From: Actinomadura sp. KC345
GTDB taxonomy: Bacteria > Actinomycetota > Actinomycetes > Streptosporangiales > Streptosporangiaceae
Direction: 5' to 3'
Length of the DNA: 64,000 nucleotides
NCBI RefSeq assembly: GCF_004348515.1
Contig: NZ_SMKH01000007.1
Location: 1-64,000 of the forward strand
The notes under the pieces were generated by a model. The model was not told where the DNA came from. It worked only from the letters and a program-made list of their open reading frames with translations, and did not search any database. Below are positions 12,447 to 27,308 of this stretch, in pieces. A program made the position numbers and the translations under genes. The number at the start of each line of letters is the position of its first letter. Position 1 is the stretch's first letter.

Positions 12447-15140
12447 ATGGTGCGGCAGGCGTTGTACGGGCGTGGGGCCGAGGTCGCCGAGATCGACCGG
12501 CTCGTGGGACGTGCGCGGGGCGGCGCGGGCGGCGGAGTCCTGATTCTGCGCGGGGAGGCCGGCATCGGCAAGACCGCGCTGCTCGACCACGCGCACGAGG
12601 TCGCGGACGGGATGCGCGTTCTGCGCGGGAGCGGGATAGAGGCGGAGGCCGAGGTCCCGTTCGCGGCGCTGCATCTTCTGCTCGGCGACCGTGTGCTCGG
12701 CGACCGTGCGGACCGGTTCGAGCGGCTTCCCGCCCCGCAGGCGGCGGCGCTGAGGGCGGCGCTCGGGCTGGCCCGGCCCCGCGCGGAGGACAGGCTTCTC
12801 GTCGGGCTGGCGCTGCTGACGCTGCTCGGCGGCCCCGGGGCGGACACGCCGGTCCTGTGCCTGGTGGACGACGCGCAGTGGCTCGACCGGGAGTCCGCGG
12901 ACGCGCTGCTGTTCGCCGCCCGCCGGGTCGCCGCACGGAACGTCGTCTTCCTGATCGCGGTCCGGGACGACATCGCGCCCCGGGACGACGCCACAGCCTG
13001 GTCCAGGGCGGGCCTTCCCGAACGTCGCCTGACCGGCCTCGACGCCGAGGACGCGCGGCTGCTGCTGGACGAGCGCGCACCCCACGTCCCCGCCGGACGG
13101 CGTGACCGCGTCGTCGAGCAGGCGCGCGGCAACCCCCTCGCCCTCATCGAGTTCGCCGGCGCGGGGGCCGGACGTCCCGCCCAGGTCCCGGTGGAGTTCG
13201 AGCGGGCCGTCCGCGACCTGCCCGAGCCGGCGCGGGTGCTGCTCGCCGTCGTGGCCGCGGACGACACCGGGGAGCCGGGCGTCGCGGTGCGGGCGGCGCG
13301 GAGCCTGGGCGTGCCGTTCGACGCGCTGGAGGCGGCCGAGAGCGCCGGTCTGGTGGCCGTCACCCGCGCCGCGATCGGCTTCCGGCATCCGCTGGCGCGG
13401 GCCGCCGCGTACCAGGGCGTCCCGGTCACGCGGCGGATCGCCGTCCACCGCGCGCTCGCCGAGGTGCACGCGCACGCGGGCGACGCGGACCTGCGGGTCC
13501 GGCACCTGGCCGCCGCGGCCCTCGGGACGGACGAGGCGGTCGCCGCCGAGCTGGAGGCGGCCGCGGGCGACATCCGGGACAAGGACGGCCCCCCGGCCGC
13601 GGCCTTCGCCTACGAGCGCGCCGCCCGGCTCGCGGGGGACCCGGAGGTCCGGGCCCGGCGGCTGGCGTCGGCGGCCGAGGGGGAGCTGGCCGGGGGACGT
13701 CCCGACCGGGCGCGTGCGCTGGCCGACGAGGCGGTACGGGCGGACTCCGGTCAGGAGACGGCGGCGCGCGCCGATCTGGTGCGGGCCGGTATCGAGCTGG
13801 AGCACGGCGTTCCGCAGGCGGCCGGGAGGCTGCTGCTCGACCGGGCCGGAAGCTGCGACGATCCGGCGATTCACACCCGGATGCTCGAAGAGGCCGTCGT
13901 CCACGCCTGGTCGTGCGGGGATCGGGAGACGGCCGTCCAGGCGAGGGACCGGCATGAGGGGTGGCGGGAGTCGGCGGTCATGCGCGGGCTGTCGGCGGCG
14001 CTCGACGGTGATCTCGCGGACGCCGGGCGCCTTCTCGGCGACATGGGCGGAGAGGCGGACGAGCGGCTGCGGCTGCTGGGCGCCGAGGTCGCGCTGCTGG
14101 CAGGCGACGACGCGGCCGCCGGGGAGATGTCCGCGCGACTGGTCGGGCGGTGCCGCGAACGCGGGCTGCTCTCGCTCGTGCCGCGCGGACTCGGGGTCCA
14201 GGCGTGGTCGCGGCTGTTCCACGGCGCGCATGACGACGCCCGTGCGCTGACCCGCGAGGCGCTGGAGATCGCCGAGGAGGCGGGGCAGCACCGACAGGCC
14301 GCCGCGCTGCGGGCGATCCAGGCGCGGCAGGCGGCGGTCGAGGGGGACGAGGTCCGCTGCCGCGCCCTGTCCGCCGACGGGCGGGCAGGGGACGCCCTCG
14401 GGCTGCTCGCTCTCGGTCTGGGACGCCCCGAGGACGCCTTGGAGCATTTGCAGGACACGCACAGGCATGAAGGACACGACGCGCAGCGGGTGGCGGCGTC
14501 CGGTCCGCTGGCGATCCTCGCGCTCGCGGACACCGTGGAGGCCGCCGTGGCGTCGGGGCGGCCCGGAGCGGGCGAGGAGCCGATGGCGCGGCTGGCGGCG
14601 TTCGCCCGCAACGCGCGGCAGCCGTGGGCGGACGGCGTCGCCTCGCGCTGCCGGGCGCTGCTCACCGGCGACGCGGGCGAGGAGGCGGAGCGGCATTTCG
14701 CGCTCGCGCTCGCCTCCCACCGGCTGGGCGGACGGCCGTTCGAGCGTGCCCGCACGGAGCTGCTGTACGGCGAGTGGCTGCGCAGGTCGCGGCGCCGCGC
14801 ACAGGCGAGGGTCCGGCTCGGCGCCGCACTGGAGATCTTCGAGCGGCTGGGCGCGGTGCCGTGGGCGGAGCGGGCCCGCGGGGAACTGCGCGCCGCCGGG
14901 CAGGGGGTGCGGTCCGGCGGGGACGATCCGCCGGGTCGATTGACCGCGCAGGAGATGCAGGTGGTGCGGCTGGCGATGACCGGCGCGACCAACCGGCAGA
15001 TCGCGGCCCGGCTGCGGCTGAGCCACCGGACGGTCGCGTACCACCTGTACAAGGCGTTCCCGAAGCTCGGTGTCGCCTCACGCGCCGAGCTGCACCGGTG
15101 CGTCCCGGCCCTGGAGGCCGGCGCGGACCGTCCCGCCTGA
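12447..15140 (+). CDS. LuxR family regulator with AAA ATPase domain (LAL type)
   Basis: An 897-residue large ATP-binding LuxR regulator. Walker A is GEAGIGKTALL (about residue 37) and Walker B LCLVDDAQWLD (about 138). A long alpha-helical TPR-like middle follows, and the C-terminal helix-turn-helix reads LTAQEMQVVRLAMTGATNRQ with LRLSHRTVAYHLYKAF. LAL proteins activate antibiotic or catabolic operons in response to small molecules. Long open frames on the opposite strand are GC-bias shadows. The 159-base gap upstream holds no clear gene; the gene stands alone between the response regulator and the kinase. Confidence 0.9.
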   Translation: MVRQALYGRGAEVAEIDRLVGRARGGAGGGVLILRGEAGIGKTALLDHAHEVADGMRVLRGSGIEAEAEVPFAALHLLLGDRVLGDRADRFERLPAPQAAALRAALGLARPRAEDRLLVGLALLTLLGGPGADTPVLCLVDDAQWLDRESADALLFAARRVAARNVVFLIAVRDDIAPRDDATAWSRAGLPERRLTGLDAEDARLLLDERAPHVPAGRRDRVVEQARGNPLALIEFAGAGAGRPAQVPVEFERAVRDLPEPARVLLAVVAADDTGEPGVAVRAARSLGVPFDALEAAESAGLVAVTRAAIGFRHPLARAAAYQGVPVTRRIAVHRALAEVHAHAGDADLRVRHLAAAALGTDEAVAAELEAAAGDIRDKDGPPAAAFAYERAARLAGDPEVRARRLASAAEGELAGGRPDRARALADEAVRADSGQETAARADLVRAGIELEHGVPQAAGRLLLDRAGSCDDPAIHTRMLEEAVVHAWSCGDRETAVQARDRHEGWRESAVMRGLSAALDGDLADAGRLLGDMGGEADERLRLLGAEVALLAGDDAAAGEMSARLVGRCRERGLLSLVPRGLGVQAWSRLFHGAHDDARALTREALEIAEEAGQHRQAAALRAIQARQAAVEGDEVRCRALSADGRAGDALGLLALGLGRPEDALEHLQDTHRHEGHDAQRVAASGPLAILALADTVEAAVASGRPGAGEEPMARLAAFARNARQPWADGVASRCRALLTGDAGEEAERHFALALASHRLGGRPFERARTELLYGEWLRRSRRRAQARVRLGAALEIFERLGAVPWAERARGELRAAGQGVRSGGDDPPGRLTAQEMQVVRLAMTGATNRQIAARLRLSHRTVAYHLYKAFPKLGVASRAELHRCVPALEAGADRPA

Positions 15141-15273
15141 CGCGTCCCGCCCGGCCCGTCCGCCCGGCCGGCGAGTCCTGGCGTCCGCGCCACAAAAAAC
15201 ATTCGGTCGATTACTTGTCTTGATCGTATGCCCCCGCCGTTTCATCATCCGAGGAGGCGGCGTTGGGGGGCCG

Positions 15274-17280
15274 GTGAACATAGCGCGATGGAACGAAGCC
15301 GTACGGCGGCGAGAGGAGCCGGCGGGCCGAGGGGGCCTCGCCGGCAGGACGCCGTTGTTCGCCAGGGTCATCACCGGCATGTACCTGGTGCTGATCCTGC
15401 AGACCCGGCTGCTGAAGCAGGCGGAGACCGGCCCGTCGCACATGCTGCTGTCGGCGACGATCGTGATCATCGGCATCTTCGGGGTGCAGTGGCTGCTCGT
15501 CCTGTACGGGCCGCGCTCGCAGCACCCCCGGCGCTGGGTGATCGTGACACATCTCACCGTGCAGACCGCGCTGGCGCTGCTGCCGCTCGCCGTGTTCGGC
15601 ACGCACTGGTACCCCGTCGTGGGCGGGTTCCTCGCCGGCGCGATGCTGCTCCTGCTGCGTCCGCCGCTGTCGTGGTTCATGGTGGGGCTCGTCCTGGCCG
15701 CTGAGGGTGTGCTGCGGTACTACCAGGGCTGGTCCGCGCAGGACGTGTCGTTCTGCGTGATGGCGACGATGAACGTCGGGCTGTCGATGTACGCGCTGAC
15801 ACGGCTGTCCGGGTTCGTCCGGGAGCTGCACGCCACCCGGGCGCAGTTCGCGGCGGCCGCGGCGGCGCGGGAGCGGCTGGAGGCGGCGGGCAGCCTGCGC
15901 GCGGTGCTGGGGGCCGCGCTCACCCGGATCGAGACCGTGAGCCGCCGCGCCCGCGACCGGCTCCCGGTCGACGCCGCCGCGGCGCGCACCGATCTGGACG
16001 AGGTCGCGCGGACCTCGCGGCGCGCCGCCACGGACGTCCGGTCGATCGTCGGCGCGCTCCAGGGCCCGTCCCCGCGGGGGCACCGGCCGGGACGCGTGAC
16101 GCAGTCGCGCCTCGCCTGGACGATCCTCCTCTTCGTCACCGTGGGTTTCGCCTGGCAGCAGGTCATGTACGTCCACAACGGGCCGGACGGGTCCTGGCGG
16201 ATGACCGCGGCGGCGGCCGTCGTGGCGGCCGCGATCTCGGCGCTGCAGCTGCGGCACTCCTCGACCGTGCTGCGCGGACGGCGGCCGAGGGGCGGGCGGT
16301 GGACGCTCTCCGCGCAGGTCCTGTTGATCTTCGTGCCGTACGCGCTGCTCGGCCCGGAGTGGGCGACGATGGCGTGCCTGGCGACCGGATCGGTGCTGCT
16401 GGTGTCGCGCGGGCGGTGGGCGTGGATCCTGTTCTCGCTGACGATCACGGCGTGGTGCGTTCCGGCGCTGTGGGCGTGGCAGGGGGCGCTGTTCTACCTC
16501 TACACGTCCGCCATCTCGGTGCAGATCGGCGTGGTCGTGTACGCGCTGTTCCGGCTTCCGCAGCTCGCCCGCGAGGTCGATGTCGCGCGCGAGCGGCTGG
16601 CGCGGATGGCGGCGCTGCACGAGCGGCTGCGGATCTCCCGCGACGTCCACGACCTGCTCGGGCTCGGGCTGTCGACGATCACCGTCAAGGCGGAGCTGGC
16701 GCGGCGGCTCGTCACCGCCGACCCGGCGCGGGCCAGGGCGGAACTGGACGAGCTCGCGGCGCTGGCCCAGCGGTCGAGGGCGGAGGCCAGCACGGTCGCC
16801 GAGGAGGACCGGGCGCTGTCGCTGCGGGACGAGGCGGTGTCGGCCCGCGCCGCGCTGGCGGCCGCCGGCGCCGAGGTCCGGCTACACCTGCCCGGCCTCG
16901 CCGACCTGCCGCCGTCGTCCCCGGCCGACGGGGCGCTGGCGGCCGTGCTGCGAGAATCCGTCACCAACGTCCTGCGGCACGCGCATCCGGAGCGGTGCGA
17001 CATCTCGGTCACCGTCCACCGCGGGATCGTGCGGCTCACGGTCGGCAACGACGGCGTCATCCCGCCGTCCTACACCGGGTCCGATCCGGGCACCGGCAAG
17101 GGGCTGTCGAACCTGACCGTCCGCACCGGCGCGCTCGGCGGCTCCCTCTCGGCGGGCACGGACGGCCACGGCGGGTTCACGCTCATCGCGGAGATCCCCC
17201 TCATCACGGTCGCCCCCGGCGCGGGCGCGGGGGAAGAGCCCCGTCAGATGACGGATTCGCCCCTTCCCTTCGGTGCCTAG
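15274..17280 (+). CDS. DesK-type sensor histidine kinase with two sensor modules
   Basis: A 668-residue membrane kinase from GTG at 15274 (ribosome binding site GAGGAGG at 15251, somewhat distant; start uncertain). Residues 1-190 carry about five or six helices, then 195-262 form a coiled segment resembling a HisKA_3 dimerisation domain that lacks its histidine. A second set of about six helices follows, then a genuine HisKA_3 domain with RISRDVHDLLGLG (His459) and a HATPase domain with RESVTNVLRHAH and GKGLSNL. The protein therefore looks like a kinase whose sensor and dimerisation parts were duplicated, with the first copy inactive. It directly precedes the LarA operon, by 10 bases to the small peptide start. 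Confidence 0.8.
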   Translation: MNIARWNEAVRRREEPAGRGGLAGRTPLFARVITGMYLVLILQTRLLKQAETGPSHMLLSATIVIIGIFGVQWLLVLYGPRSQHPRRWVIVTHLTVQTALALLPLAVFGTHWYPVVGGFLAGAMLLLLRPPLSWFMVGLVLAAEGVLRYYQGWSAQDVSFCVMATMNVGLSMYALTRLSGFVRELHATRAQFAAAAAARERLEAAGSLRAVLGAALTRIETVSRRARDRLPVDAAAARTDLDEVARTSRRAATDVRSIVGALQGPSPRGHRPGRVTQSRLAWTILLFVTVGFAWQQVMYVHNGPDGSWRMTAAAAVVAAAISALQLRHSSTVLRGRRPRGGRWTLSAQVLLIFVPYALLGPEWATMACLATGSVLLVSRGRWAWILFSLTITAWCVPALWAWQGALFYLYTSAISVQIGVVVYALFRLPQLAREVDVARERLARMAALHERLRISRDVHDLLGLGLSTITVKAELARRLVTADPARARAELDELAALAQRSRAEASTVAEEDRALSLRDEAVSARAALAAAGAEVRLHLPGLADLPPSSPADGALAAVLRESVTNVLRHAHPERCDISVTVHRGIVRLTVGNDGVIPPSYTGSDPGTGKGLSNLTVRTGALGGSLSAGTDGHGGFTLIAEIPLITVAPGAGAGEEPRQMTDSPLPFGA

Positions 17281-17290: not shown

Positions 17291-17419
17291 ATGACGCAGG
17301 ATCACCGCATTCCCCCGTCGGTCTCCTTCCAGGCCACCGCCGCGCCCCAGGCGTCCACCGGCGACCTGCCCTCCGTCGAAGCCTGGGGTGCCGCCGGGCA
17401 CCGGAAGCGTGCCGCATGA
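17291..17419 (+). CDS. Small 42-residue protein coupled to the acyl-reductase operon
   Basis: ATG at 17291 to TGA at 17419, 42 residues. The stop overlaps the ATG of the next gene as ATGA, so translation is probably coupled. The peptide begins MTQDHRIPPSVSFQA, is rich in Ala, Pro and Ser and ends in the basic RKRAA. There is no signal peptide and no Cys, so a classical RiPP precursor is unlikely. It could be a real regulator or subunit, or simply a leader peptide that feeds ribosomes into the operon. I do not recognise a family. Confidence 0.5.
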   Translation: MTQDHRIPPSVSFQATAAPQASTGDLPSVEAWGAAGHRKRAA

Positions 17420-19713
17420 GCGGGGGGAGCCTGGGTCTCGCCGGGCGCACCGTCCTGCTGACCGGCGTCACCGGGTTCATCGGGCAGGCCCTCCTTGAGC
17501 GCCTTCTGTCCGGGTATCCCGACACCCGGATCGTGGCGATCCTGCGGGGACGGCCGGGCGTGACCGCGGAGCAGCGGCTGGACGAGGTGGTCGGCAAGCC
17601 GGTGTTCGCGCCGTGGCGGGAGCGGGTCGGCGAGGACGAGGCCCGCGCGATCGTGCGGGACCGGGTACGGGTCGTCGAGTCCGACATCACCGAGTCCGTG
17701 CCCGACCTGCCGGACGACGTGGACGTGGCCATCCACGGCGCGTCCATCGTGTCGTTCGACCCGCCGATCGACGAGGCGTTCGCCACCAACGTCGTCGGCA
17801 CGACCAACCTGTACGAGGCGGTCCGGCGCGCCGCGGAGGGCTCCGGGAAGTCGCCGCACATCGTGCACGTCTCCACCGCCTACGTCGCGGGCTCGCGGAA
17901 GGGGATCGTCCCCGAGACGACCCTGGACCACGCGATCGACTGGCCCACCGAGCTGGAGTACGCGGGCGAGGCGCGCCGGTCCGTCGAGCGCGACTCGCGG
18001 CGGCCCGAGGTCCTCGGGCGGCTGCGCGCCGCCGCGCTCAAGGAGCAGGGCAAGGCCGGCCCGACCGCCGTGGCGGCCGACACCGAGCGCCGCCGCCGCG
18101 AGGAGGTCGACAGCAGGCTGACCGACTACGGGCGCGAGCGCGCCCGGAGCCTCGGCTGGCCCGACGTCTACACGTTCACCAAGGCCCTCGGGGAACGCGC
18201 CGCCGAGGAGACCGCCCGCGAGTTGCCGCTGTCGATCGTCCGCCCGGCGATCGTGGAGAGCGCGCTGCGGCACCCGTACCCCGGCTGGATCGACGGCTTC
18301 AAGATGGCCGACCCGCTGATCCTCGCCTACGGGCAGGGGATGCTGCGGGCGCTCGCCGGCATCCCGGACGGGATCGTCGACATCATCCCCGTGGACATGG
18401 TGGTGAACGCGCTGATCGCCGCCGCCGCGGCGCCGCCCGAGCCCGGCGAACCCGCCTACTACCACGTCGGGTCCGGCGCCCGGAATCCGCTCACGCTGCA
18501 GCGGCTGGTCGAACTCGTCCAGGAGTACTTCACCGAGCATCCGCTGCCCGGGAGCGACGGGCGCGGCGCGATCCGCCCCCGCGACGTGACGCTGCTCAGC
18601 GACGGCCGCGCCGAGAAGATGCTGGGCACGGCGGAGCGCGCGATGGACGTCGCCGAACGCGCGCTGATGATGCTGCCCAGCGGGGAGCGTACCCGCGGCT
18701 GGCAGCGCAACCTGCACAAGCAGGGGCGCGAGGTCCGGATGCTGCGCCGCTACCGCGACCTGTACGGGGCGTACGGCGCGGCCGAGGTCGTCTACGCCGA
18801 CTCCGGGACGCTAGCGCTCGACCGTTCGCTGCCGGACGGCGAGGGCTGCGACTCCGCGGTCATCGACTGGGCGCACTACCTCCGCGACGTGCACTGCCCC
18901 GCGGTGACGGCCGCGTTCCGGCTCGCTCCGCCGCACCACCCGGAGCCGCGCCCGGCGGTGACGTCGCGCCCGGCTCCGCCTCCGGCGCGGTTCGAGGAGC
19001 GGCGGGACGTCGCGGCCGTGTTCGACCTCGACGGCACGATCGTCGCGTCCGACGTGGTCGAGGCGCACCTGTGGGCGCGGCTGCTGGACGTCCCCGTCCG
19101 GACCTGGCCGGGGACGCTGCTGCCCGTCCTGAAGTCGGCGCCCAAGTACATGCGCATGGAGCACCGTGACCGCGGGGAGTTCCTGCGCGAGTTCGTCCGC
19201 CGGTACGAGGGCGCGAACGAGGAGCAGCTGCGGGCGCTGGCCCGGGAGCGGCTCGCGGACGTGCTGCTGCGCCGGGCCTGGCCGCAGGCGATCCGCCGGA
19301 TCCGCGGCCACCGCGCCGCCGGGCACCGGACCGTCCTGCTCACCGGGACCGTGGACGTGTTCGTCGAGCCGCTCCGCACGCTGTTCGACGACGTCCTGGC
19401 CGCCCGGCTCCGCGTCGTCGACGGGCACTACACCGGGCACTTCGAACGGCCCCCGCTCATCGGGGAGGCGCGTGCCGCCTGGCTGCGCTCCTGGGCCCGC
19501 GCGGAGGGCGTCGACCTGGCCGGGAGCTGGGCGTACGGGGACCACTACTCCGACCGCCCCGTCCTGGAGCAGGTCGGCAACCCGGTCGCCGTCAATCCCG
19601 ACCCCCGGCTGTACCGGCACGCCAAGCGGCAGCGCTGGACGATCGCGGACTGGGACGGCGACACCGGCGCCGTGTCCACCCTGCTCGACGCGGCCTTGGA
19701 GGAGGCGCGATGA
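17416..19713 (+). CDS. Fatty-acyl-reductase-like SDR fused to a HAD-IB phosphatase
   Basis: A 765-residue fusion. Residues 10-340 form an extended SDR of the male-sterility/fatty-acyl-CoA reductase or thioester-reductase type: LLTGVTGFIGQALLERLL for NAD(P), then VSTAYVAG, and the catalytic pair in YTFTK (about 252-256). Residues 530-760 form a HAD-IB phosphatase: FDLDGTI (about 536), LLTGTVD, and YGDHYSDRPVLEQVG (about 708). It should reduce an acyl thioester and also remove a phosphate from a lipid-like or serine-like product. First large gene of a five-gene operon with ATGA overlaps on both sides; its PlsC partner at 22594 supports a lipid role. The exact substrate is unknown. Confidence 0.8.
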   Translation: MSGGSLGLAGRTVLLTGVTGFIGQALLERLLSGYPDTRIVAILRGRPGVTAEQRLDEVVGKPVFAPWRERVGEDEARAIVRDRVRVVESDITESVPDLPDDVDVAIHGASIVSFDPPIDEAFATNVVGTTNLYEAVRRAAEGSGKSPHIVHVSTAYVAGSRKGIVPETTLDHAIDWPTELEYAGEARRSVERDSRRPEVLGRLRAAALKEQGKAGPTAVAADTERRRREEVDSRLTDYGRERARSLGWPDVYTFTKALGERAAEETARELPLSIVRPAIVESALRHPYPGWIDGFKMADPLILAYGQGMLRALAGIPDGIVDIIPVDMVVNALIAAAAAPPEPGEPAYYHVGSGARNPLTLQRLVELVQEYFTEHPLPGSDGRGAIRPRDVTLLSDGRAEKMLGTAERAMDVAERALMMLPSGERTRGWQRNLHKQGREVRMLRRYRDLYGAYGAAEVVYADSGTLALDRSLPDGEGCDSAVIDWAHYLRDVHCPAVTAAFRLAPPHHPEPRPAVTSRPAPPPARFEERRDVAAVFDLDGTIVASDVVEAHLWARLLDVPVRTWPGTLLPVLKSAPKYMRMEHRDRGEFLREFVRRYEGANEEQLRALARERLADVLLRRAWPQAIRRIRGHRAAGHRTVLLTGTVDVFVEPLRTLFDDVLAARLRVVDGHYTGHFERPPLIGEARAAWLRSWARAEGVDLAGSWAYGDHYSDRPVLEQVGNPVAVNPDPRLYRHAKRQRWTIADWDGDTGAVSTLLDAALEEAR

Positions 19714-21023
19714 TCCTGGCGCTGGAGTACCATCGCTCGCCCGCCCGCTACCTCGCCGCCGCGCGCCTGCCCGGACGGCTCCGCCCGGCCGCCGTCCCCT
19801 CGCTCGCCCCGCTGCGACTGTCGCACCGCCAGCCGCCCGGGAAGCCGGGGCCCGGATGGGTGCGGCTGAAGACCGTGCTGTCGGGGATCTGCGGATCCGA
19901 CCTCGCGATGGCCGCCGGGAAGGTGTCCCCGTACCTGGGGCCGCTCACGTCGATGCCGTTCGTGCCCGGCCACGAGATCCTCGCGGAACTGCTCGACGAC
20001 ACCGACGGCATGCCCGCCGGGACGCGCGTGGTCATCGACCCGGTGCTGCCGTGCCGGGCGCGCGGGACGGGTCCCTGCCCGCCCTGCGCCGACGGCCACG
20101 AGAACCGGTGCGACCACGTGAACGCCGGACGGATCTCCTCGGGACTGCAGACCGGGTTCTGCTCCGACACCGGGGGCGGCTGGTCGGAACGCCTCGTCGC
20201 GCACCGCAGCCAGCTGCACCGGGTGCCGGAGTCGCTGCCGTCCGAACGGGCCGTGCTGGCGGAGCCGCTCGCGTGCGCCGTGCGGTCCGTCCGGCGCATC
20301 GACGTCCCCCGCGGCACGTCGATCGTCGTGGTCGGCGCCGGGACGGTCGGGCTGCTGACCGTCCTCGCGCTGCGCGAGCTGACCGCCGCCGGGCCGATCA
20401 CCGTCATCGCCCGGCACGCCGGGCAGCGGCGGCGCGCCCGCGAGCTGGGCGCGACCGAGACGATCGACCCCTCGGCGGCGCTGCGCGGGCTGCGGCGCAT
20501 CACCGGCGGGTCCCTCGTCCGTCCCGAACTCGGCCCCGGCTACCTGCTCGGCGGCGCCGACATCGTCGTCGAGTGCACCGGCGGCGAGGGCCTCGACACC
20601 GCGCTGCGGCTCGTCCGCGCGGGCGGGACGGTGCTGCTGTCGGGCATGCCGTCCAAGCCCGTCGACCTGACGCCCGCCTGGTTCCGGGAGCTGAACATCG
20701 TCGGCTCCTACGCCAGCCGCGGCGCGGACGACTTCCAGGCCGCGATCGACCTGGCCGCGCACGACGGCCTCGAAGGCTTCGTCGACAGCATCTACCCCCT
20801 CACCCGCTGGCGGGACGCGCTGTCGCACGCGCTGTCCGCCGGACGTTCGGGCAGCGTCAAGATCGCCTTCGCTCCCCACAACGGCACGTCCATGCACGAC
20901 GGCACGGCCTCGCGGGACATCACGGCCCCCAAGAACGGCGGCGCCCCCGCGCTGAGCGGCGGCACGCCTCCGCTCAACGGCGACAGCACCGACCACCTCG
21001 ATCGCGAAGGAGCCGATGGATGA
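19710..21023 (+). CDS. Zinc-binding medium-chain dehydrogenase
   Basis: A 437-residue alcohol dehydrogenase-like enzyme, longer than usual because of a C-terminal low-complexity tail of about 50 residues rich in Gly, Asn and Pro. Zinc residues are in SGICGSDLAMAAG and FVPGHEI; the structural zinc loop includes CPPCADGHENRC; the nucleotide site is VVGAGTVGLLTVLAL. It begins with ATG overlapping the stop of the SDR-HAD gene (ATGA) and ends in ATGA overlap with the LarA-like gene. In this operon it most likely interconverts an alcohol and aldehyde or ketone that the SDR and LarA-like proteins also handle. Confidence 0.85.
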   Translation: MILALEYHRSPARYLAAARLPGRLRPAAVPSLAPLRLSHRQPPGKPGPGWVRLKTVLSGICGSDLAMAAGKVSPYLGPLTSMPFVPGHEILAELLDDTDGMPAGTRVVIDPVLPCRARGTGPCPPCADGHENRCDHVNAGRISSGLQTGFCSDTGGGWSERLVAHRSQLHRVPESLPSERAVLAEPLACAVRSVRRIDVPRGTSIVVVGAGTVGLLTVLALRELTAAGPITVIARHAGQRRRARELGATETIDPSAALRGLRRITGGSLVRPELGPGYLLGGADIVVECTGGEGLDTALRLVRAGGTVLLSGMPSKPVDLTPAWFRELNIVGSYASRGADDFQAAIDLAAHDGLEGFVDSIYPLTRWRDALSHALSAGRSGSVKIAFAPHNGTSMHDGTASRDITAPKNGGAPALSGGTPPLNGDSTDHLDREGADG

Positions 21024-22597
21024 GCAGACCGGGACTCGTGCTGGAGGTGGACGAGCGGACCCCCCCGATCCTCGTCCACGAAGGGGAGGGGTTCCGGCTG
21101 GAGCGGTTCCCGCTCGGCACCCGCGTGATCTACCCGCCGGACTCGCTGCCCGGCATCCGCGACGTGAACGGCCGGATCCGCGAGGCGCTGCTGCACCCCC
21201 TCGGCAGCGAGCCGCTGCCGGAACTGCTGCACTCGGGCATGCGGCTGACGATCGTGTTCGACGACCTGTCGCTGCCGCTGCCGCCGATGCGGGCGCCCGA
21301 CGTCCGGCAGCGGGTGATCGAGCAGGTCCTCGAGATGGCCGCGGCCGCCGGCGTCGACGACGTCGAGCTCATCGCCGGGAACGCCCTGCACCGCCGGATG
21401 ACGCCCGCGGAGATCAAGCACATCGTCGGGGAGCGGGTCTTCGACTCCTTCTGGCCCGACAAGCTCCGCAACCACGACGCCGAGGACCGCGACGACCTCA
21501 AGGCGCTCGGGCAGACCCGGCACGGCGAGGACGTCGAGATCAACAAGCGGGCCGCCGAGAGCGACCTGCTGGTGTACGTGAACATCAACCTGGTGGCGAT
21601 GAACGGCGGCGCGAAGTCCGTCGCGGTGGGGCTCGCCTCGTACAAGAGCCTGCGCCACCACCACAACGTCCACACGCTGCGGGAGTCGCGCTCGTTCAAC
21701 GACCCGCCGAACTCGGCGATGCACCACTCCTACGACCGGATGCACAAGCTGCTGTCGGAGTCGGTGCGGGTCTTCCACATCGAGTGCACCCTCAACAACG
21801 ACCAGTTCCCGTCGCCGTTCGAGTTCCTGAACAAGCGCGAGTGGGAGTGGACGCTGAAGGACCAGGCGAAGTTCCTCGCCGCCAAGCGCGCCAACGACAT
21901 CGCCCCGGCCGGCGCGCGGCACCGCGTGTGGCAGAACATGCGGGCGCCGTACGGGGTCACGGGCGTGCACGCGGGCGCCACCGACGAGGTCCACGAGCGG
22001 ACGCTCGCGGCGGTGCACCGCCAGCAGATGACCGAGGTGCACGGCCAGTCGGACGTGCTGATGCTGGGCCTGCCGTACCTGTGCCCCTACAACGTCAACT
22101 CGGTGATGAACCCGATCCTCGTGTACAGCCTGGGGCTCGGCTACTACTTCAACATGTACCGGAACAAGCCCCTGGTACGCGAGGGCGGCGCCCTCATCAT
22201 GTACCACCCGATGAAGTCGGAGTTCCATCCGCTGCACCACCCCAGCTACATCGACTTCTACGAGGAGGTGCTGACGCAGACGACGGACCCGGCGACGATC
22301 GAGACGAAGTTCGAGGAGCAGTACGCCACCGACCCCTGGTACGTCCACCTGTACCGGAACTCGTACGCCTACCACGGCGTCCACCCGTTCTACATGTGGT
22401 ACTGGGGCGCGCACGCGCTCTCCCACCTGGGCGACGTCATCTGCGTGGGGGCCGACCGCAAGGTCGCGTCTCGGCTCGGGTTCCGCGCGGCCAGCAGCCT
22501 CGCCGACGCGCTGGAGATGGCGGGCGAGTCGGTCGGCCGCAGCCCCAGCCTCACCTACCTCCACACCCCGCCGATGACGCTGGCGGACGTCCGATGA
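21020..22597 (+). CDS. LarA-like (lactate racemase domain, DUF2088) protein
   Basis: A 525-residue protein, about 100 residues longer than Lactobacillus LarA (about 424). The LarA N-terminal signature appears as FDDLSLP (Asp81, Asp82), then NALHRRM (His124), GGAKSVAVG (Lys199) and a HHH run at 213-215, in the order of the NPN-binding and nickel-ligand residues of LarA. Two features differ: the Arg of the usual DDxTRP motif is Leu85 here, and the GHVxPHxFAG segment before the Lys has become NINLVAMNG, losing a catalytic His. ATG at 21020 overlaps the upstream stop. With larE-larB-larC next door it probably uses an NPN-type cofactor in epimerising or dehydrogenating a 2-hydroxy-acid-like group. 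Confidence 0.8.
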   Translation: MSRPGLVLEVDERTPPILVHEGEGFRLERFPLGTRVIYPPDSLPGIRDVNGRIREALLHPLGSEPLPELLHSGMRLTIVFDDLSLPLPPMRAPDVRQRVIEQVLEMAAAAGVDDVELIAGNALHRRMTPAEIKHIVGERVFDSFWPDKLRNHDAEDRDDLKALGQTRHGEDVEINKRAAESDLLVYVNINLVAMNGGAKSVAVGLASYKSLRHHHNVHTLRESRSFNDPPNSAMHHSYDRMHKLLSESVRVFHIECTLNNDQFPSPFEFLNKREWEWTLKDQAKFLAAKRANDIAPAGARHRVWQNMRAPYGVTGVHAGATDEVHERTLAAVHRQQMTEVHGQSDVLMLGLPYLCPYNVNSVMNPILVYSLGLGYYFNMYRNKPLVREGGALIMYHPMKSEFHPLHHPSYIDFYEEVLTQTTDPATIETKFEEQYATDPWYVHLYRNSYAYHGVHPFYMWYWGAHALSHLGDVICVGADRKVASRLGFRAASSLADALEMAGESVGRSPSLTYLHTPPMTLADVR

Positions 22598-23517
22598 GCG
22601 GGGGGCGCATGAAGCTGGTCCAGGAGGTCCGGCTGCTGCGGCGCGGGCGCGACTGGCGCGGCCGCGCCCCCGCGCCGCGCTCCGCCCAGCCGTGGACGGA
22701 AGGCCCGCCCGCACGGTCCTTCCCCACCGAGTGGGCACGGACACCGCTCGCCGCGGCCGCCCGGACGGTCGTGTTCGACGGCATGCTGAGAACCGTCACG
22801 TGGAACCAGACGCGACCCGAGATTCACGGCCTGGACCTCCTCGAAGGCGTGAAGGGCCCGGCGGTGTTCGTCGCGAACCACGCAAGCCACCTCGACACGC
22901 CGCTCATCCTCGGGTCGCTGCCCGCCCAGGTGCGTCACCGTGTCGCGGTCGCCGCGGCGGCCGACTACTTCTTCGACGCCCGCTGGCGCGCGATCGCCAC
23001 CGCGCTCACGTTCAACGCGTTCCCGATCGAGCGGCGCGGCGTCGAACGCTCCCTGGAGCTCGCCTCCGAGCTCATCGAGGACGGCTGGAGCCTGCTCATC
23101 TACCCGGAGGGGACCCGGTCGCCGGACGGCTGGGCCCGCCGCTTCCGGATGGGCGCCGCGCTGCTGTGCCGCGAGAACGGCATCCCGGCCGTCCCGCTGG
23201 TGCTGCGCGGCACGTACCAGGCGATGCCGCGCGGCGGGTTCTGGCCGAAGAAGGGCCGTCCCGTCGTGTCGGTGCGCTACGGCCGGCCGCTCCACCCCGA
23301 CCCGGAGGAGTCGACGGGCACGTTCAACGCCCGGCTGGAGGACGAGGTCGGCCGCCTGTGGGTCGAGCACGACGAGGGCTGGTGGGCGTCCATGCACTCC
23401 CCCGACCGCCGCCGCGCCCCGCGCGGCCCGGAGGCGTCCGAGTGGCGCCGCAAGTGGGAGTCGACCCGCCCGACGTCACCGTCGACCCGCCACCACCGCA
23501 TCTGGCGCCGCCGCTGA
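22594..23517 (+). CDS. 1-acylglycerol-3-phosphate acyltransferase family protein (PlsC-like), last gene of the LarA operon
   Basis: A 307-residue acyltransferase with the NHX4D motif in VANHASHLDTP (about residue 90) and the second motif in YPEGTRSPDG (about 170). There is an unusual basic N-terminal extension and a basic Arg-rich C-terminus. The start ATG at 22594 overlaps the LarA-like stop as ATGA. Being fused by overlap to an acyl-reductase, dehydrogenase and LarA-like gene, it probably acylates the hydroxyl product of that pathway. A GC-rich hairpin and the second 64-bp palindrome follow. Confidence 0.87.
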   Translation: MSGGRMKLVQEVRLLRRGRDWRGRAPAPRSAQPWTEGPPARSFPTEWARTPLAAAARTVVFDGMLRTVTWNQTRPEIHGLDLLEGVKGPAVFVANHASHLDTPLILGSLPAQVRHRVAVAAAADYFFDARWRAIATALTFNAFPIERRGVERSLELASELIEDGWSLLIYPEGTRSPDGWARRFRMGAALLCRENGIPAVPLVLRGTYQAMPRGGFWPKKGRPVVSVRYGRPLHPDPEESTGTFNARLEDEVGRLWVEHDEGWWASMHSPDRRRAPRGPEASEWRRKWESTRPTSPSTRHHRIWRRR

Positions 23518-23540
23518 CGGCCGGCTCCCCGTAGGAACGC

Positions 23541-23574
23541 GGGCGCCGCCGGCCAACGAAGCCCGGCGGCGCCC
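23541..23574. terminator. GC-rich hairpin after the LarA operon
   Basis: Perfect 12-base arms GGGCGCCGCCGG (23541-23552) and CCGGCGGCGCCC (23563-23574) with a 10-base loop, 23 bases after the acyltransferase stop. The 64-bp palindrome begins 4 bases later, so two stacked hairpins separate the convergent operons. Confidence 0.75.
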
Positions 23575-23578
23575 GCCC

Positions 23579-23642
23579 CGTTGACTTGCGGCGAGTTGTT
23601 GTCATGGCGGGCCGGATAACAACAACTCGCCGCAAGTCAACG
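23579..23642. repeat. 64-bp palindromic element, copy 2
   Basis: Perfect 24-base arms (23579-23602 and 23619-23642) with a 16-base loop. Relative to copies 1 and 3, GCGTG in the left arm is GCGAG and the right arm has CTCGC, a compensated change that keeps pairing. It ends 1 base before the larC stop and serves the convergent operon ends. Confidence 0.92.
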
Positions 23643-23643
23643 T

Positions 23644-24372
23644 CTAGGGGGTCTCGCCCAGGACCGCCTGGGTGACGTTGGGGAAGTCGCCGAAGATCTT
23701 CGTGCCCGCGCCGAAGCCGTTGCCGGTCACCGTCATCGCGGGCATCGGGCCGAACTCGGCGGCGAGCGTGACCAGCAGCGCGGTCCCGGTGGGGGTGGCC
23801 ATCTCGGCGTCGATGTCGTGGCCGTGGATCGGCGCGCGGGCGCGGGCCAGGAGTTCGACGACCGCCGGGCCCGGGTTGGGGATCAGGCCGTGGCGGCACC
23901 GGATGAAGCCGCGCCCGACCGGGATCGGGGCGGCGCGCACCTCGTCCACGCCGAGGGTCTCCAGGGCGGCGCACGTCCCGACGATGTCGACGATCGCGTC
24001 GTGGCCGCCGACCTCGTGGAAGTGCACGTCCTCCGGCGGCGTGCCGTGCACGGCTCCCTCGGCCTCGGCGAGCGTCCGGAACACGGCGAGCGCCCGGTCG
24101 CGGACGCGGCCCGGCAGCGGGGCCGAGCCGACGACGTCCTCGATGACGGCGTGCGTCCGGGACACGGCGTCGTCCTCCACGCCGACGACGGCGCGGGTGG
24201 CGGCGATGCCGCGCCGCGACACGCGCTCGGTGTCCAGGGACCAGCCGGGGACGTCCAGGCCCTTGAGCATGGCGCGCACCTCGTCGAGGTCGGCGCCCGC
24301 GTCGAGGAGGGAACCGAGGGCCATGTCGCCGGCCACGCCGGCGAAGCAGTTGAAATAGGCGATGTTCTTCAC
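23644..24372 (-). CDS. larC: LarC-like protein, LarC1 part only
   Basis: A 242-residue LarC-type protein. It starts NIAYFNCFAGVAGDMALGSL, has VHFHEVGGHDAIVDIVG and EMATPTGTALLVTLAAEFGP, and ends GDFPNVTQAVLGETP. This is the complete LarC1 region of LarC, the CTP-dependent nickel insertase for the NPN cofactor. The LarC2 half, which in Lactobacillus is reached by frameshift and binds CTP, is absent: the stop at 23644 is followed at once by the 64-bp palindrome. Start is GTG at 24372, overlapping the larB stop (GTGA). Last gene of the operon. Confidence 0.82.
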   Translation of the reverse strand: MKNIAYFNCFAGVAGDMALGSLLDAGADLDEVRAMLKGLDVPGWSLDTERVSRRGIAATRAVVGVEDDAVSRTHAVIEDVVGSAPLPGRVRDRALAVFRTLAEAEGAVHGTPPEDVHFHEVGGHDAIVDIVGTCAALETLGVDEVRAAPIPVGRGFIRCRHGLIPNPGPAVVELLARARAPIHGHDIDAEMATPTGTALLVTLAAEFGPMPAMTVTGNGFGAGTKIFGDFPNVTQAVLGETP

Positions 24373-24986
24373 GTGAGCAACCTCCGCGCTAGTACTGCGG
24401 CCCCCAGCCCGTCGTCGATTCCGGTGACGGCCAGGCCCGGTGCGCCCGAGGCCAGCAACGCGGCCAGGGCCGCGAGACCGCCGTCCGAGCTGCCGTAGCC
24501 GACGCTGGTCGGCACGGCCACCACGGGACGGGACGACACCTTGGCCACGACCGAGGGCAGCGCGCCGTCCATCCCGGCGACGACGATGAGGAGCCGCGCC
24601 CGGTCGAGTTCCTCCCGGACGGCGAGGAGGCGGTGCAGGCCCGCGACGCCGACGTCCGCGGTCAGCGTTGCGGCCAGGCCGAACGTGGTCGCCGCGACCA
24701 GCGCCTCCTCCGCCACCGGCAGGTCGGCCGTCCCCGCCGAGACGACGGCGACCGGCAGCGGCACCTGGGAACAGGGGCGGGGACGCGGCGGGGCCAGCAC
24801 CACGAGCCCGGACCGTTCGTGGCGGACGGCGTCGGGGGCGGCCTCGCGCGCCGCCTCGTACTGGTGCCGGGACGCCCGCCGGAGGAAGGCCGCCTCGGCG
24901 TCGCGGGCGAGCAGTTCCTTGACGCGCTCGCGTATCCGCTCCGGGCCGAGGTCCCCGGCGTGGGCGGCGGCGATCGGGCGGCTCAC
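24369..24986 (-). CDS. larB: LarB-like protein, second copy (short)
   Basis: A 205-residue LarB-like protein from GTG at 24986, which overlaps the stop of the first larB by GTGA. It keeps VSAGTADLPVAEEA, VAGMDGALPSVVAKV and PTSVGYGSSDGG, all characteristic of LarB, the carboxylase/hydrolase that makes the pyridinium dicarboxylate from nicotinic acid adenine dinucleotide. It lacks the N-terminal GFPEVxxxEGKT-type segment, and the position of the catalytic Cys (Cys221 in Lactobacillus LarB) reads LASGAPG, without Cys. So it looks inactive on its own and possibly complements the first copy. Confidence 0.8.
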   Translation of the reverse strand: MSRPIAAAHAGDLGPERIRERVKELLARDAEAAFLRRASRHQYEAAREAAPDAVRHERSGLVVLAPPRPRPCSQVPLPVAVVSAGTADLPVAEEALVAATTFGLAATLTADVGVAGLHRLLAVREELDRARLLIVVAGMDGALPSVVAKVSSRPVVAVPTSVGYGSSDGGLAALAALLASGAPGLAVTGIDDGLGAAVLARRLLT

Positions 24987-25672
24987 TCGTGCCCCCGGGA
25001 GTTGATCAGGTGGGCGGCGTATCCGGCGCCGTACCCGTTGTCGATGTTGACCGTGACGACCCCGGGCGAGCACGCGTTCAGCGCGGACAGCAGCGCGGCC
25101 TTGCCCGGCAGTTCACCGCTCGCCGAGGTCGGCAGTGCGATGACCATGCGGTCGACCAGGCCGGACACCAGGGTGGGCAGGGCCCCGCCGGTCCCGTCCG
25201 CGACGATGAGCACCTCGGGGCCGTCCTGCTCGCGAAGCCAGCCGGGCAGGGCGGCGGGATCGTGGACGGGCGCGTCATAGCGCCGCACGACCCGGCTCCC
25301 CATCGCCTCCGCCACCAGTGCGGCCTCCTCGGCGGCGGGCTCGTCCTCGGGCCGCCCGCACACGACCTCGACCCGTCCGATGCCGCGTCCCGCGACCGGG
25401 GACAGGACGGCCAGCCGAGCGCGCTCGTGGACCACCGCCCCGGAGAAGGCCGCGCGGAGCGCCCGCAGGGTCTCGGCGGACGCGCGGGTCGCGAGCACGT
25501 TGACAGCGCCCGCGCCGGTCAGGCTCTCGGCGATCGCGACGACCTCGGCCGTCGTCTTGCCCTCGCAGAACACCGCCTCGGGATGGCCGCGGCGGTGCCC
25601 TCGCCCGATGTCGACCCGGGCGAAGCCCAGTTCATCGATCGCATCCGTACCGGTCGTTGGGGGGCCGGTCAT
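24983..25672 (-). CDS. larB: LarB-like protein, first copy
   Basis: A 229-residue LarB homologue. The N-terminal segment GFARVDIGRGHRRGHPEAVF and EGKT is the LarB start, and the C-terminal ALNACSPGVVTVNIDNGYGAGY keeps the Cys equivalent to Cys221. By contrast PTSASGELPGKA replaces the conserved SVGYGASFGG loop, and CGRPEDEPAAEEA replaces the AGTxDxPVAEEA motif. So it retains the nucleophile but has lost the substrate loops that the second copy preserves. Start ATG at 25672 overlaps the larE stop. It lies between larE and the second larB. Confidence 0.8.
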   Translation of the reverse strand: MTGPPTTGTDAIDELGFARVDIGRGHRRGHPEAVFCEGKTTAEVVAIAESLTGAGAVNVLATRASAETLRALRAAFSGAVVHERARLAVLSPVAGRGIGRVEVVCGRPEDEPAAEEAALVAEAMGSRVVRRYDAPVHDPAALPGWLREQDGPEVLIVADGTGGALPTLVSGLVDRMVIALPTSASGELPGKAALLSALNACSPGVVTVNIDNGYGAGYAAHLINSRGHE

Positions 25673-26526
25673 GAAGCGGCCGCCCGCACGCGGGGAAGTC
25701 CGAGGACGGCGTTGTGGCTGCCCTGCCGGTAGGGCTCCAGGTCGAGGGTCACGTAGCGGAAACCGGCGTCCTTGAGGAGGGCTGCGATCTCGGACGCCCG
25801 GCCGGCGGCACGCGCGATGTCCGCGGCCTCCACCTCGATGCGGGCCAGGTCTCCGCCCTGGTCGCGGACGCGGAACCGTCCGCCGAACCCGGCGCGGCGG
25901 AGTGCGTCCTCGGCGTCCTCGATCCGCCGGAGTGCCTCCCGGGTGACGGGCACACCGTAAGCGAGGCGCGACGACAGGCAGGCCGAGGCCGGTTTGTCGG
26001 ACGTAGGCAGCCCCAACCCACGTGCGGCGTCCCGCACATCGTCCTTGCTGAGGCCCGCGTCCACCATCGGGAACTTCGCGCCCATCCGGCGGGCGGCGCT
26101 CTGACCGGGCCGGTGGTCGCCCAGGTCGTCGGTGTTCACGCCGAGCAGGACGGGCCAGTCCCCCGCCTCGGCCGCCACCGCGTTCAGCACCGAGACGAGG
26201 GCCTCCTTGCAGAACCGGCAGCGGTCGGCGCCGTTGGCCGCGTACCGCTCGTCGTCCAGCTCGCCGGTCGTCACCACCCGGTGGCGGATCCCCAGCCGCG
26301 CGGCCTGGGCGCGGGCGTCCGCCAGCTCCGACCGGGCCAGCGACGCCGAGTCGGCGGTGACCGCGACGGCCCGCTCCCCCAGCTCCCGGTGCGCCAAGTA
26401 GGCCAGGAGCGAGCTGTCCACACCACCCGAGTAGGCGACCACGGCACCCGGCAGCGAGGCCAGCGCCTCGCGCAACGCCGCGACCTTCGGCGTGTCCGGG
26501 AGCCGCGAAACGGGCCTGTCGGCCAT
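25669..26526 (-). CDS. larE: ATP-dependent sacrificial sulfur transferase LarE
   Basis: A 285-residue ATP-pyrophosphatase. SGGVDSSLLAYLAH (about residue 34) is the PP-loop, CRFCKEAL a CxxC at about 105, and KPASACLSSR carries a Cys at the position of the sacrificial Cys176 of Lactobacillus LarE. It should convert the pyridinium dicarboxylate mononucleotide to the bis-thiocarboxylate, using its own Cys sulfur. ATG at 26526 follows AAGGAGATCC. It is the first gene of a four-gene operon (larE-larB-larB-larC) in which every junction is a 4-base overlap. Confidence 0.9.
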   Translation of the reverse strand: MADRPVSRLPDTPKVAALREALASLPGAVVAYSGGVDSSLLAYLAHRELGERAVAVTADSASLARSELADARAQAARLGIRHRVVTTGELDDERYAANGADRCRFCKEALVSVLNAVAAEAGDWPVLLGVNTDDLGDHRPGQSAARRMGAKFPMVDAGLSKDDVRDAARGLGLPTSDKPASACLSSRLAYGVPVTREALRRIEDAEDALRRAGFGGRFRVRDQGGDLARIEVEAADIARAAGRASEIAALLKDAGFRYVTLDLEPYRQGSHNAVLGLPRVRAAAS

Positions 26527-26708: not shown

Positions 26709-27308
26709 TCAGCCGCGAGCCGCGTCGAAGCGGGCCTTGACGTCCGTCCAGTCGACGAGCGACCAGAGCTTCTCGACGTAATCCGGGCGGACGTTGCGGT
26801 ATTGCAGGTAGTAGGCGTGCTCCCAGGCGTCGAAGACCAGCAGCGGCGTCGTGTTCATCCCGACGTTGCCGTGGTGGTCGTAGACCTGTTCGACCACGAG
26901 CCGCCGCCCCAGCGGCTCCCACGCGAGCACGCCCCAACCGGAGCCCTGCACGGTGGACGTCGCGGCCGTGAGCTGCTTCCGGAACGCCTCGAACGAGCCG
27001 AAGTGCTCGTCGATCGCCGCCGCCAGTTCCCCGTCGGGACGGTCGCCGCCGTCCGGCGACAGGTTGTCCCAGAAGATCGAGTGCAGGACGTGCCCGGACA
27101 GGTTGAACGCGAACGTCTTCTCCAGGCCGACCAGCCCGCCGAACTGCTCCTTGTCCCGCGCCTCGGCGAGCTTCTCCAGCGTGTCGTTGGCGCCCTTGAC
27201 GTACGCCGCGTGGTGCTTCGAATGGTGCAGCTCCAAGATCTCCCCGGTGATGGCGGGCTCCAGAGCGGCGTAGTCGTAGGGCAGGTCGGGAAGCACGTAG
27301 TCAGCCAT
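26709..27308 (-). CDS. sodA: Superoxide dismutase (Fe/Mn type)
   Basis: A 199-residue iron/manganese superoxide dismutase. Metal ligands fit [26 protein letters not shown] and [15 protein letters not shown], and the C-terminal VDWTDV region is typical. It converts superoxide to peroxide and oxygen in the cytosol. ATG at 27308. Neighbours are the lar operon downstream, beyond the hairpin, and small repeat-protein genes upstream. Metal choice (Fe, Mn or cambialistic) cannot be told from this. Confidence 0.95.

Follow-up and report, generated by a model that had tools for sequence, protein, structure and literature searches.

What does a LarA-like protein do in an operon of lipid genes, and what does that operon make? 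The question is raised by a locus of Actinomadura sp. KC345 (contig NZ_SMKH01000007.1, positions 1 to 64,000; this whole stretch of 64,000 nucleotides is the window referred to below). A plus-strand operon there converges on genes for the nickel-pincer nucleotide (NPN) cofactor of LarA enzymes, with the following features:

17291-17419, plus strand: 42-aa upstream ORF, read from the sequence, ending in the ATGA of the FAR-HAD gene
17416-19713, plus strand: fatty acyl-CoA reductase (FAR; NAD_binding_4) fused to a HAD-IB phosphatase, 765 aa (Pfam, PDB, TIGR01490)
19710-21023, plus strand: MDR zinc dehydrogenase of polyol type, 437 aa (ADH_N and ADH_zinc_N)
21020-22597, plus strand: LarA-like protein of the LarAH14/15/16 family, 525 aa, with a single catalytic His (Lar_N; NF052592); LarA14 below
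22594-23517, plus strand: PlsC acyltransferase, 307 aa (Pfam Acyltransferase 66.4 bits, cut-off 23)
23579-23642, no strand: two terminator-like hairpins, forming an inverted pair in the gap where the operons converge (consensus match only)
23644-24372, minus strand: larC, LarC1 part only, 242 aa (Ni_insertion; TIGR00299)
24369-24986, minus strand: larB2 (NF033503 LarB 186 bits, cut-off 175)
24983-25672, minus strand: larB1 (NF033503 LarB 168 bits, just below the cut-off of 175)
25669-26526, minus strand: larE sulfur transferase, 285 aa (TIGR00268 279.4 bits, cut-off 150)

A preliminary description of this DNA had the plus-strand lipid genes convergent with larE-larB-larB-larC; its coordinates and gene order agree with the sequence, and direct reading of the bases bears out its statement that every junction inside both operons is ATGA or GTGA, including the larB-larB overlap, provided that the second larB starts at GTG 24986. 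Two hairpins were observed at 23579-23642, against a mean of 0.2 in shuffled sequences. The 42-aa ORF, earlier counted as a small peptide of the operon, lacks a conserved body: five Actinomadura loci could be read at this place (a further four could not), and what they share is limited to the first few residues at best, with bodies and lengths that vary. Judged from this comparison it is probably not a conserved gene, and the small peptide was dropped as a functional part.

The first long reading frame encodes a protein with Pfam NAD_binding_4 (161 bits) and HAD (121 bits) domains that also exceeds the cut-off of the HAD-IB model TIGR01490. Its best solved match is a fatty acyl-CoA reductase (PDB 7eoz, E 2.2e-47), so that what had been called an acyl-reductase-like SDR can be named more specifically as a FAR homologue. 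A C-terminal FAR_C (Sterile) domain was not reported for the window protein; its orthologue in locus L221 scores 36.8 bits (cut-off 35.4). The nearest solved relative of the dehydrogenase is 4ej6, an unassigned zinc dehydrogenase, followed by 1e3j, a ketose reductase, and further by xylitol and sorbitol dehydrogenases; all NCBIfam polyol models scored below their cut-offs. LarA14 matches Lar_N (Pfam, 145 bits) and NF052592 (924.6 bits, cut-off 740), the LarAH14/15/16 family that corresponds to group 14 of Desguin 2020 with Frankia LarAH14; Frankia loci (67-68% identity) are among its relatives.

The four-gene arrangement (FAR-HAD, dehydrogenase, LarA14, PlsC) is far beyond chance, because the same order and strand recur in 67 of the 69 loci with enough flanking sequence; the decayed locus L165 is without the dehydrogenase, and L116 is without PlsC. 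Across a sample of 396 genomes of the phylum, FAR-HAD was found in 92, LarA14 in 86 and both together in 82, and fragments or contig ends account for 13 of the 14 mismatches (the remaining one is genome G486).

The cofactor genes belong with the lipid operon, as had been supposed. Among 99 related genomes, LarE above cut-off was found in 23/23 with LarA14 versus 15/76 without it, and LarC in 22/23 versus 16/76, the one miss being a genome of 77% completeness. No LarA14 without larE, the case named earlier as contradicting the link, was seen in these 99 relatives, and in Actinomadura 18 of 60 genomes encode a LarA of any kind, and exactly these have LarE above cut-off. The larC product, the sole match in the window's genome, is LarC1 alone (TIGR00299, 197.7 bits), because it aligns to positions 1-235 of the 375 in the Ni_insertion model. 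In alignment, larB1 keeps the conserved Cys and an N-terminal GHPEAVFCEGKT-type motif and lacks the DVGVAGLHRLL and AGMEGALPS motifs; larB2 has neither that Cys nor the N-terminal motif.

As judged by alignment, LarA14 keeps the cofactor residues and the first catalytic His of LarA (His108): Asp82, His124, Lys199 and His215, equivalent to LarA Asp72, His108, Lys184 and His200, are each invariant in 124/124 homologous strings (all distinct and 50% or more identical; some could represent a single protein with different trimming). The second catalytic His occurs in none of them, the His174 position being Asn in 99, Thr in 23 and Ser in 2, beside an invariant Asn188. Arg75, which in LarA contacts the substrate carboxylate and the cofactor phosphate, is likewise kept in 0/124 (Leu 95, Ile 27, Val 1, Cys 1). 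Fold comparison gave Z scores of 26.4-36.4 to 11 entries titled LarA-type or racemase, and 20.2 to 4nar. The L. plantarum enzyme (5huq, Z 28.2) shares the four cofactor and catalytic residues but differs in His174 and Arg75, and LarA14 is about 90 residues longer than its solved chain (433 residues). Nearest in fold are the single-His LarA proteins of Streptococcus plurextorum (LarASp; 9q2u/9q3k, Z 36.4 to 9q3k) and Blautia wexlerae (9q3j, Z 34.0), with which LarA14 aligns at the catalytic His, Lys, Ni-His, Tyr307 and His401; identity in the fold alignment is 25%, the gene neighbours differ, and in LarA14 the Lys76/78 position is Leu and His306 is Pro. In the accessible text of the two studies concerned, NPN enzymes with established activity are racemases or epimerases of 2-hydroxy acids, and no reaction is reported for LarA proteins without the second His (PMC7583248; PMC12611868). 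For group 14, the main text of the open-licence literature yielded neither a reaction nor a link to FAR-HAD, PlsC or the swap with alkylglycerone-phosphate synthase (AGPS) described below.

A substitution within one family, the Jiangellaceae, bears on the role of LarA14. FAR-HAD is present in 20 of 22 Jiangellaceae genomes. AGPS, an SDR and PlsC accompany it in 14 of the 17 clusters examined, and one more (L245) ends with its contig before AGPS; the other two, from Haloactinopolyspora and a genus mate, encode the dehydrogenase, LarA14 and PlsC together with larE, larB and larC. No lar genes were seen beside the AGPS-type clusters fetched. The identity of AGPS is well supported in L221 (PDB 2uuu, E 2e-128; 4bby, E 2e-91). 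In a FAR-HAD tree of the quick kind, midpoint-rooted and with near-duplicate loci of the same genomes removed by hand (17 listed plus short duplicates), the 15 AGPS-type rows, L245 included, form one clade (SH-aLRT 100) that is sister to Haloactinopolyspora and nested within the LarA-type rows, four of which (L225-L228) lie on contigs that stop short of LarA. The swap is a single event in one family. The product of the operon may have changed with it, because the PlsC of the AGPS type has a long branch and does not group as sister with the Haloactinopolyspora PlsC. LarA14 and the dehydrogenase were exchanged as a pair, and therefore the swap does not single out which of them replaced AGPS. The AGPS-type cluster otherwise has an orthologous FAR-HAD and the same PlsC family as the window, with AGPS and SDR in place of LarA14 and the MDR dehydrogenase, and can be likened to the eukaryotic FAR1-AGPS-reductase pathway. 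A ferritin-like gene is common to some clusters of both types.

From the observed operon, its conservation, the lar linkage, the LarA14 residues and the swap, we infer that the plus strand carries an ether-lipid (alkyl-glycerol) operon for which the lar genes supply NPN, with LarA14 and the dehydrogenase in place of AGPS and SDR; we put the probability of this reading at about one half (0.52), and its product, substrate and reaction are predictions. FAR would convert an acyl thioester to a fatty alcohol (or to an aldehyde on the way); LarA14 and the MDR dehydrogenase would attach the alkyl chain to a three-carbon backbone and set the C2 hydroxyl, the work performed in the sister operon by AGPS and the short-chain reductase; PlsC would add an acyl chain, the HAD domain would remove phosphate, and the larE, larB and larC products would make the NPN needed by LarA14. 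The earlier proposal of an acyl-thioester pathway in which a hydroxyl is epimerised or oxidised thus stands in its connection of a lipid operon to NPN, and the Jiangellaceae swap replaces its generic hydroxyl step with an AGPS-like role. Chemically, the substrate could be a glycerol phosphate acylated (or activated) at position 1, with NPN accepting its C2 hydride; the transient ketone would let the C1 group depart and the fatty alcohol add, and the hydride would return. Such a route needs one acid/base His and no inversion, which would agree with the missing second His. Only tentatively, at somewhat less than even odds, do we suggest that LarA14 itself is an NPN-dependent alkyl ether synthase, which would couple a fatty alcohol (or aldehyde) to glycerol phosphate while the C2 hydride is transiently removed, an independent counterpart of the flavoenzyme AGPS that is ancestral in much of Actinomycetota and was displaced by AGPS in Jiangella and its kin.

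If the ether-lipid reading is correct, a widespread actinobacterial group of single-His LarA proteins would gain a concrete substrate class and a natural swap by which to test it. Ether lipids would then be predicted in Kribbella, Nocardioides, Frankia, Actinomadura and Haloactinopolyspora; a search of the open-licence literature found none from organisms that bear the operon. The operon would represent a further bacterial ether-lipid route besides AGPS, ElbD and Ger, a new way to form ether bonds, and it would put organonickel chemistry to a new use. The elb operon (ElbA-E) of Myxococcus xanthus also combines a FAR-like domain, an acyltransferase, HAD and dehydrogenases and has no AGPS, but its ElbD is one multidomain protein (FAR-ACS-ACP-AT), whereas the FAR of the window is fused to HAD only and PlsC is separate; in the accessible text of that study ElbC has no assigned function and LarA is not mentioned (PMC9131029). 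The glycerol ester reductase Ger / PlsA, as described in the accessible text of its source, provides another bacterial route to alkyl-glycerols by reducing an existing ester (PMC11150832).

The most serious competitor, which we consider unlikely, is a lipid that contains a fatty alcohol or a polyol, in which LarA14 would isomerise or epimerise a polyol or glycerol backbone (e.g., glycerol phosphate or a sugar alcohol) together with a polyol-type dehydrogenase; the ether bond would be made elsewhere or there would be none, and the product would have changed when Jiangella later acquired AGPS. This agrees with the long PlsC branch at the swap and with the dehydrogenase, which is nearest to polyol dehydrogenases after one unassigned protein, although the NCBIfam polyol models remain below their cut-offs. 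It also agrees with the racemase and epimerase activities of the characterised LarA relatives and, in the accessible text of its source, with the assignment of LarASp, the nearest solved relative, to sugar (carbohydrate) metabolism by its authors (PMC12611868). Against it, the second His of inversion-type enzymes is absent from LarA14, and in 34 of 53 genomes, those lacking an AGPS-like match, the fatty alcohol from FAR would have no partner enzyme.

The main evidence against the ether-lipid reading is an AGPS homologue in the window's own genome, outside the operon. Matches were judged by the whole ORF rather than by single pieces, with the motif HHH taken by us to mark an AGPS homologue and GEHGxG a glycolate-oxidase-like protein. 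Homologues of about 40% identity are encoded in 58 of 60 Actinomadura genomes, that of the window included, with or without LarA14, and HHH is present in all three that were read; in all 14 Actinomadura genomes with LarA14 the homologue is on another contig or more than 1.5 Mb from the operon. Genome-wide mutual exclusion of AGPS and LarA14 in the genus is accordingly rejected, homologues being found in 72 of the 99 relatives whatever their LarA content. Among the 51 other LarA14 genomes of the phylum sample that are at least 95% complete (all such genomes, the window's own left out), 19 likewise have an AGPS-like protein (16 ORFs read; G318, G366 and G466 on scores alone). In all these genomes the ether bond could therefore come from the AGPS homologue, and LarA14 would act before or after ether formation, for example in backbone supply or trimming, within an ether-lipid operon whose bond is made by that distant homologue or another enzyme. 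This is improbable in our view: the Actinomadura homologue does not track LarA14, since 44 of the 46 genomes lacking LarA14 also carry it, and no AGPS-like protein was found in the two Haloactinopolyspora genomes or, by score, in the other 32 of the 51 (four best matches read, the rest scoring lower). All matches in these two sets are weaker and glycolate-oxidase-like; the six best were read, and they carry GEHGxG rather than HHH.

A role of LarA14 as racemase or epimerase of a 2-hydroxy acid that becomes part of the lipid, as first proposed, would suit the hydroxyacid isomerase name of its NCBIfam family, the LarA fold and the retained cofactor residues, but is very unlikely because the second catalytic His and Arg75 are both absent, and, according to the accessible text of its source, Frankia LarAH14 was inactive in seven racemase and epimerase tests in which full cofactor loading was not assured (PMC7583248).

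A search of plasmid records for LarA returned 10 weak matches (about 25% identity), none covering 80% of the query. The sister LarA proteins L201-L204 (about 42% identity) and L205 (37%) are not beside FAR-HAD, and therefore the lipid-pathway claim is not extended to them; two of this set adjoin a CoA-transferase family III gene.

Two gene sets converge between positions 17291 and 26526 of the window (genome assembly 8.27 Mb, 600 contigs), with two terminator-like hairpins in inverted orientation between them:

Plus strand, in order: a 42-aa ORF; a fatty-acyl-reductase-like SDR fused to HAD-IB (FAR-HAD); an MDR zinc dehydrogenase; a LarA-like protein (LarA14); PlsC
Minus strand, in order: larE; larB; larB; larC

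Every internal junction of both sets is an ATGA or GTGA overlap, in agreement with the preliminary description. The nearest relative found has a LarA 99% identical to the window's. The region immediately before the operon (11628-17280) encodes a response regulator, a LuxR-type AAA regulator and a histidine kinase; because the kinase (10) and the LuxR protein (9) recur upstream in Actinomadura loci, the window counted, these genes may control the operon. The larE strand also carries an iron/manganese superoxide dismutase gene (26712-27308), just upstream of larE.

The SDR half of FAR-HAD matches NAD_binding_4 (161 bits), and its best solved relative is the fatty acyl-CoA reductase 7eoz (E 2e-47); the FAR C-terminal domain Sterile is passed by the orthologue in the Jiangellaceae locus L221, with no Sterile match reported for the window protein. 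The other half is HAD-IB (TIGR01490 exceeds its cut-off). For the dehydrogenase, the closest solved structures are one unassigned protein and then polyol dehydrogenases.

The gene order is widely conserved. A scan of species genomes retained the best 80 loci of at least 570 encoding stretches, spanning Actinomadura, Actinoallomurus, Kribbella, Nocardioides, Frankia, Phytohabitans, Streptomyces and many MAGs. FAR-HAD, dehydrogenase, LarA and PlsC occur in fixed order and strand in 68 of these 80 (10 of the remaining 12 are short of sequence on one side), and in 67 of the 69 with sufficient flank (3.7 kb or more upstream, 0.9 kb or more downstream); the exceptions are L116, without PlsC, and L165, where FAR-HAD is decayed and the dehydrogenase missing. 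In the f45 family, loci L210 and L211 keep the first three genes, with PlsC not seen beside them; in L210, a protoglobin gene (10807-11394) lies between dehydrogenase and LarA. Across a phylum sample of 396 genomes, LarA14 exceeds its cut-off in 86 and FAR-HAD (E 1e-60) is found in 92, with both in 82. Of the 14 mismatches, the 13 examined comprise five with LarA14 fragments and eight where a contig stops within the operon or next to it; the other genome is G486 (60% complete).

The proposal that the NPN cofactor genes belong with this operon also finds support: among 99 relatives, LarE exceeds its cut-off in 23/23 with LarA14 vs 15/76 without it (Fisher 8e-13, with no correction for relatedness), and LarC is found in 22/23 vs 16/76. 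LarA14 is patchy in Actinomadura (14/60 genomes), and the genomes with any LarA are identical to those with LarE over cut-off (18/60). LarE, LarB and LarC all fall within the available flank in 24 of the best 80 loci; in the remainder, the lar genes must be located elsewhere.

At 24369-25672, LarB1 retains the conserved Cys together with the N-terminal motif, and LarB2 retains the DVGVAGLHRLL, AGMDGALPS and PTSVGYG motifs without that Cys; where other lineages have one LarB, the aligned proteins carry the complete C-terminal motif set. The two are complementary remnants and look like a split obligate pair; an alignment with three further Actinomadura loci shows the same pattern there. LarC (23644-24372, 242 aa) is LarC1 only. 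In all 14 Actinomadura genomes with the operon, the LarC match reaches only as far as profile position 235-242 (profile length 375), with no second LarC match, vs lengths of 387-413 aa in 8/9 loci read from other lineages; nickel insertion in these Actinomadura may proceed without the LarC C-terminal domain. Two genomes of another family (loci L077 and L078) also have a LarC1-only match, with neither a LarA nor a LarE above cut-off.

LarA14 is the only Lar_N match in the window's genome and scores 924.6 bits against NF052592 (LarAH14/15/16; cut-off 740). We mapped residues, in lactate racemase LarA numbering, from alignments of LarA proteins across 128 distinct homologous strings, of which 124 share at least 50% identity with the window protein. 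All 124 keep the residues equivalent to Asp72, His108, Lys184 and His200. In place of His174 they have Asn (99), Thr (23) or Ser (2), two residues after an invariant Asn188 (numbered as in the window protein), and in place of Arg75 they have Leu (95), Ile (27), Val (1) or Cys (1). The expected action on 2-hydroxy acids thus finds no support, both positions being changed in every string; because the cofactor residues are invariant and these two are substituted, the sequences indicate an intact cofactor site and a 2-hydroxy-acid site that is not. The AlphaFold model (mean pLDDT 85.5) is closest in fold to two LarA proteins with a single histidine, from S. plurextorum (9q3k, Z 36.4) and B. wexlerae (9q3j, Z 34.0), followed by lactate racemases (Z up to 29.7). 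The account of those two structures does not identify a substrate (Gatreddi 2025, PMC12611868). Desguin 2020 (PMC7583248) describes a Frankia LarAH14 as negative for all seven activities assayed, and proposes that groups without His174 may catalyse another hydride-mediated reaction.

A FAR-HAD orthologue above 500 bits occurs in 23/23 relatives with LarA14 vs 2/76 without. One of the two (G051) is cut by a contig end; in the other (G081, locus L221), SDR, PlsC (48% identical to the window's) and a flavoprotein lie opposite FAR-HAD. The flavoprotein is an alkylglycerone-phosphate synthase (AGPS), both by its domains (FAD_binding_4 and FAD-oxidase_C) and by its PDB matches, 2uuu at E 2e-128 and the peroxisomal AGPS 4bby at E 2e-91. 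FAR-HAD is found in 20/22 genomes of the family to which G081 belongs, Jiangellaceae, and 17 of the 20 clusters were compared. In nine, all from one genus, FAR-HAD, SDR, PlsC and AGPS run in one direction; in four, the last three lie opposite FAR-HAD; L249 has the AGPS-type genes rearranged, and L245 is cut before AGPS. G488, whose PlsC is identical to that of Haloactinopolyspora alba (L115, Jiangellaceae), and its genus mate G489 instead encode FAR-HAD, dehydrogenase, LarA14 and PlsC, with larE, larB and larC adjoining. Lar_N occurs in 3/22 Jiangellaceae genomes: these two and G500, whose 460-codon frame seems to be a different LarA. In a 107-row tree of FAR-HAD, all 15 rows of the AGPS type fall into a single clade that is sister to Haloactinopolyspora (support 99) and nested inside the LarA type; their PlsC belongs to the same PlsC family, but its branch is long and does not adjoin Haloactinopolyspora. 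A gene for a ferritin-like protein of ~305 aa recurs beside some clusters of each type (L108:2157-3071, L222:8252-9184, L246-L249 and L250); of three scanned, two match Rubrerythrin weakly and L108 not at all. The protein is possibly a desaturase of the lipid.

Searched for AGPS, G488 and G489 (99-100% complete) give at best a glycolate-oxidase-like protein (GEHGxG, no HHH motif). The phylum sample holds 51 further LarA14 genomes with a completeness of 95% or more (window's own excluded); 19 of them encode an AGPS-like protein, with HHH in all 16 read; the other 32 gave weaker matches only, the four best read all being GEHGxG. Counting against an absence of AGPS, 58/60 Actinomadura genomes carry a homologue, among them the window's own. 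Where LarA14 is also present (14 genomes), the homologue is on a different contig or >1.5 Mb from the operon. The three Actinomadura AGPS loci read have HHH, with no FAR or PlsC of the operon within about 6 kb.

Animal aerobic ether-lipid synthesis is described as requiring FAR1, an acyltransferase and AGPS (PMC9131029), with DHRS7B as alkyl-glycerone phosphate reductase (PMC13200781). The AGPS-type Jiangella operon holds this same set, plus HAD. DHRS7B is an SDR. The LarA-type operon has LarA14 and the MDR dehydrogenase in place of the AGPS and SDR of the AGPS-type operon. The simplest reading is that both pairs perform the same net job. By analogy with the NAD-dependent S-adenosylhomocysteine hydrolase, the NPN cofactor would transiently oxidise C2, a group would be exchanged at C1, and the hydride would be returned. 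A reductive route via the fatty aldehyde is just as plausible. The transient-oxidation mechanism would account for one histidine sufficing and for the loss of the carboxylate-binding arginine; if demonstrated, LarA14 chemistry would be new in kind.

Available accounts ascribe bacterial alkyl-glycerol synthesis to ElbD or Ger (PMC11150832), and give an AGPS gene of Myxococcus a minor part (PMC9131029). In the literature searched, no paper combining lactate racemase and ether lipid was found; the component families are known, and their combination and the swap are new as far as the searches extend. LarA relatives at ~42% identity in L203 and L204 likewise have no second histidine, and a CoA-transferase family III gene adjoins LarA in L204 (by Pfam) and L203 (by a similar protein start), a second context for single-histidine LarA.
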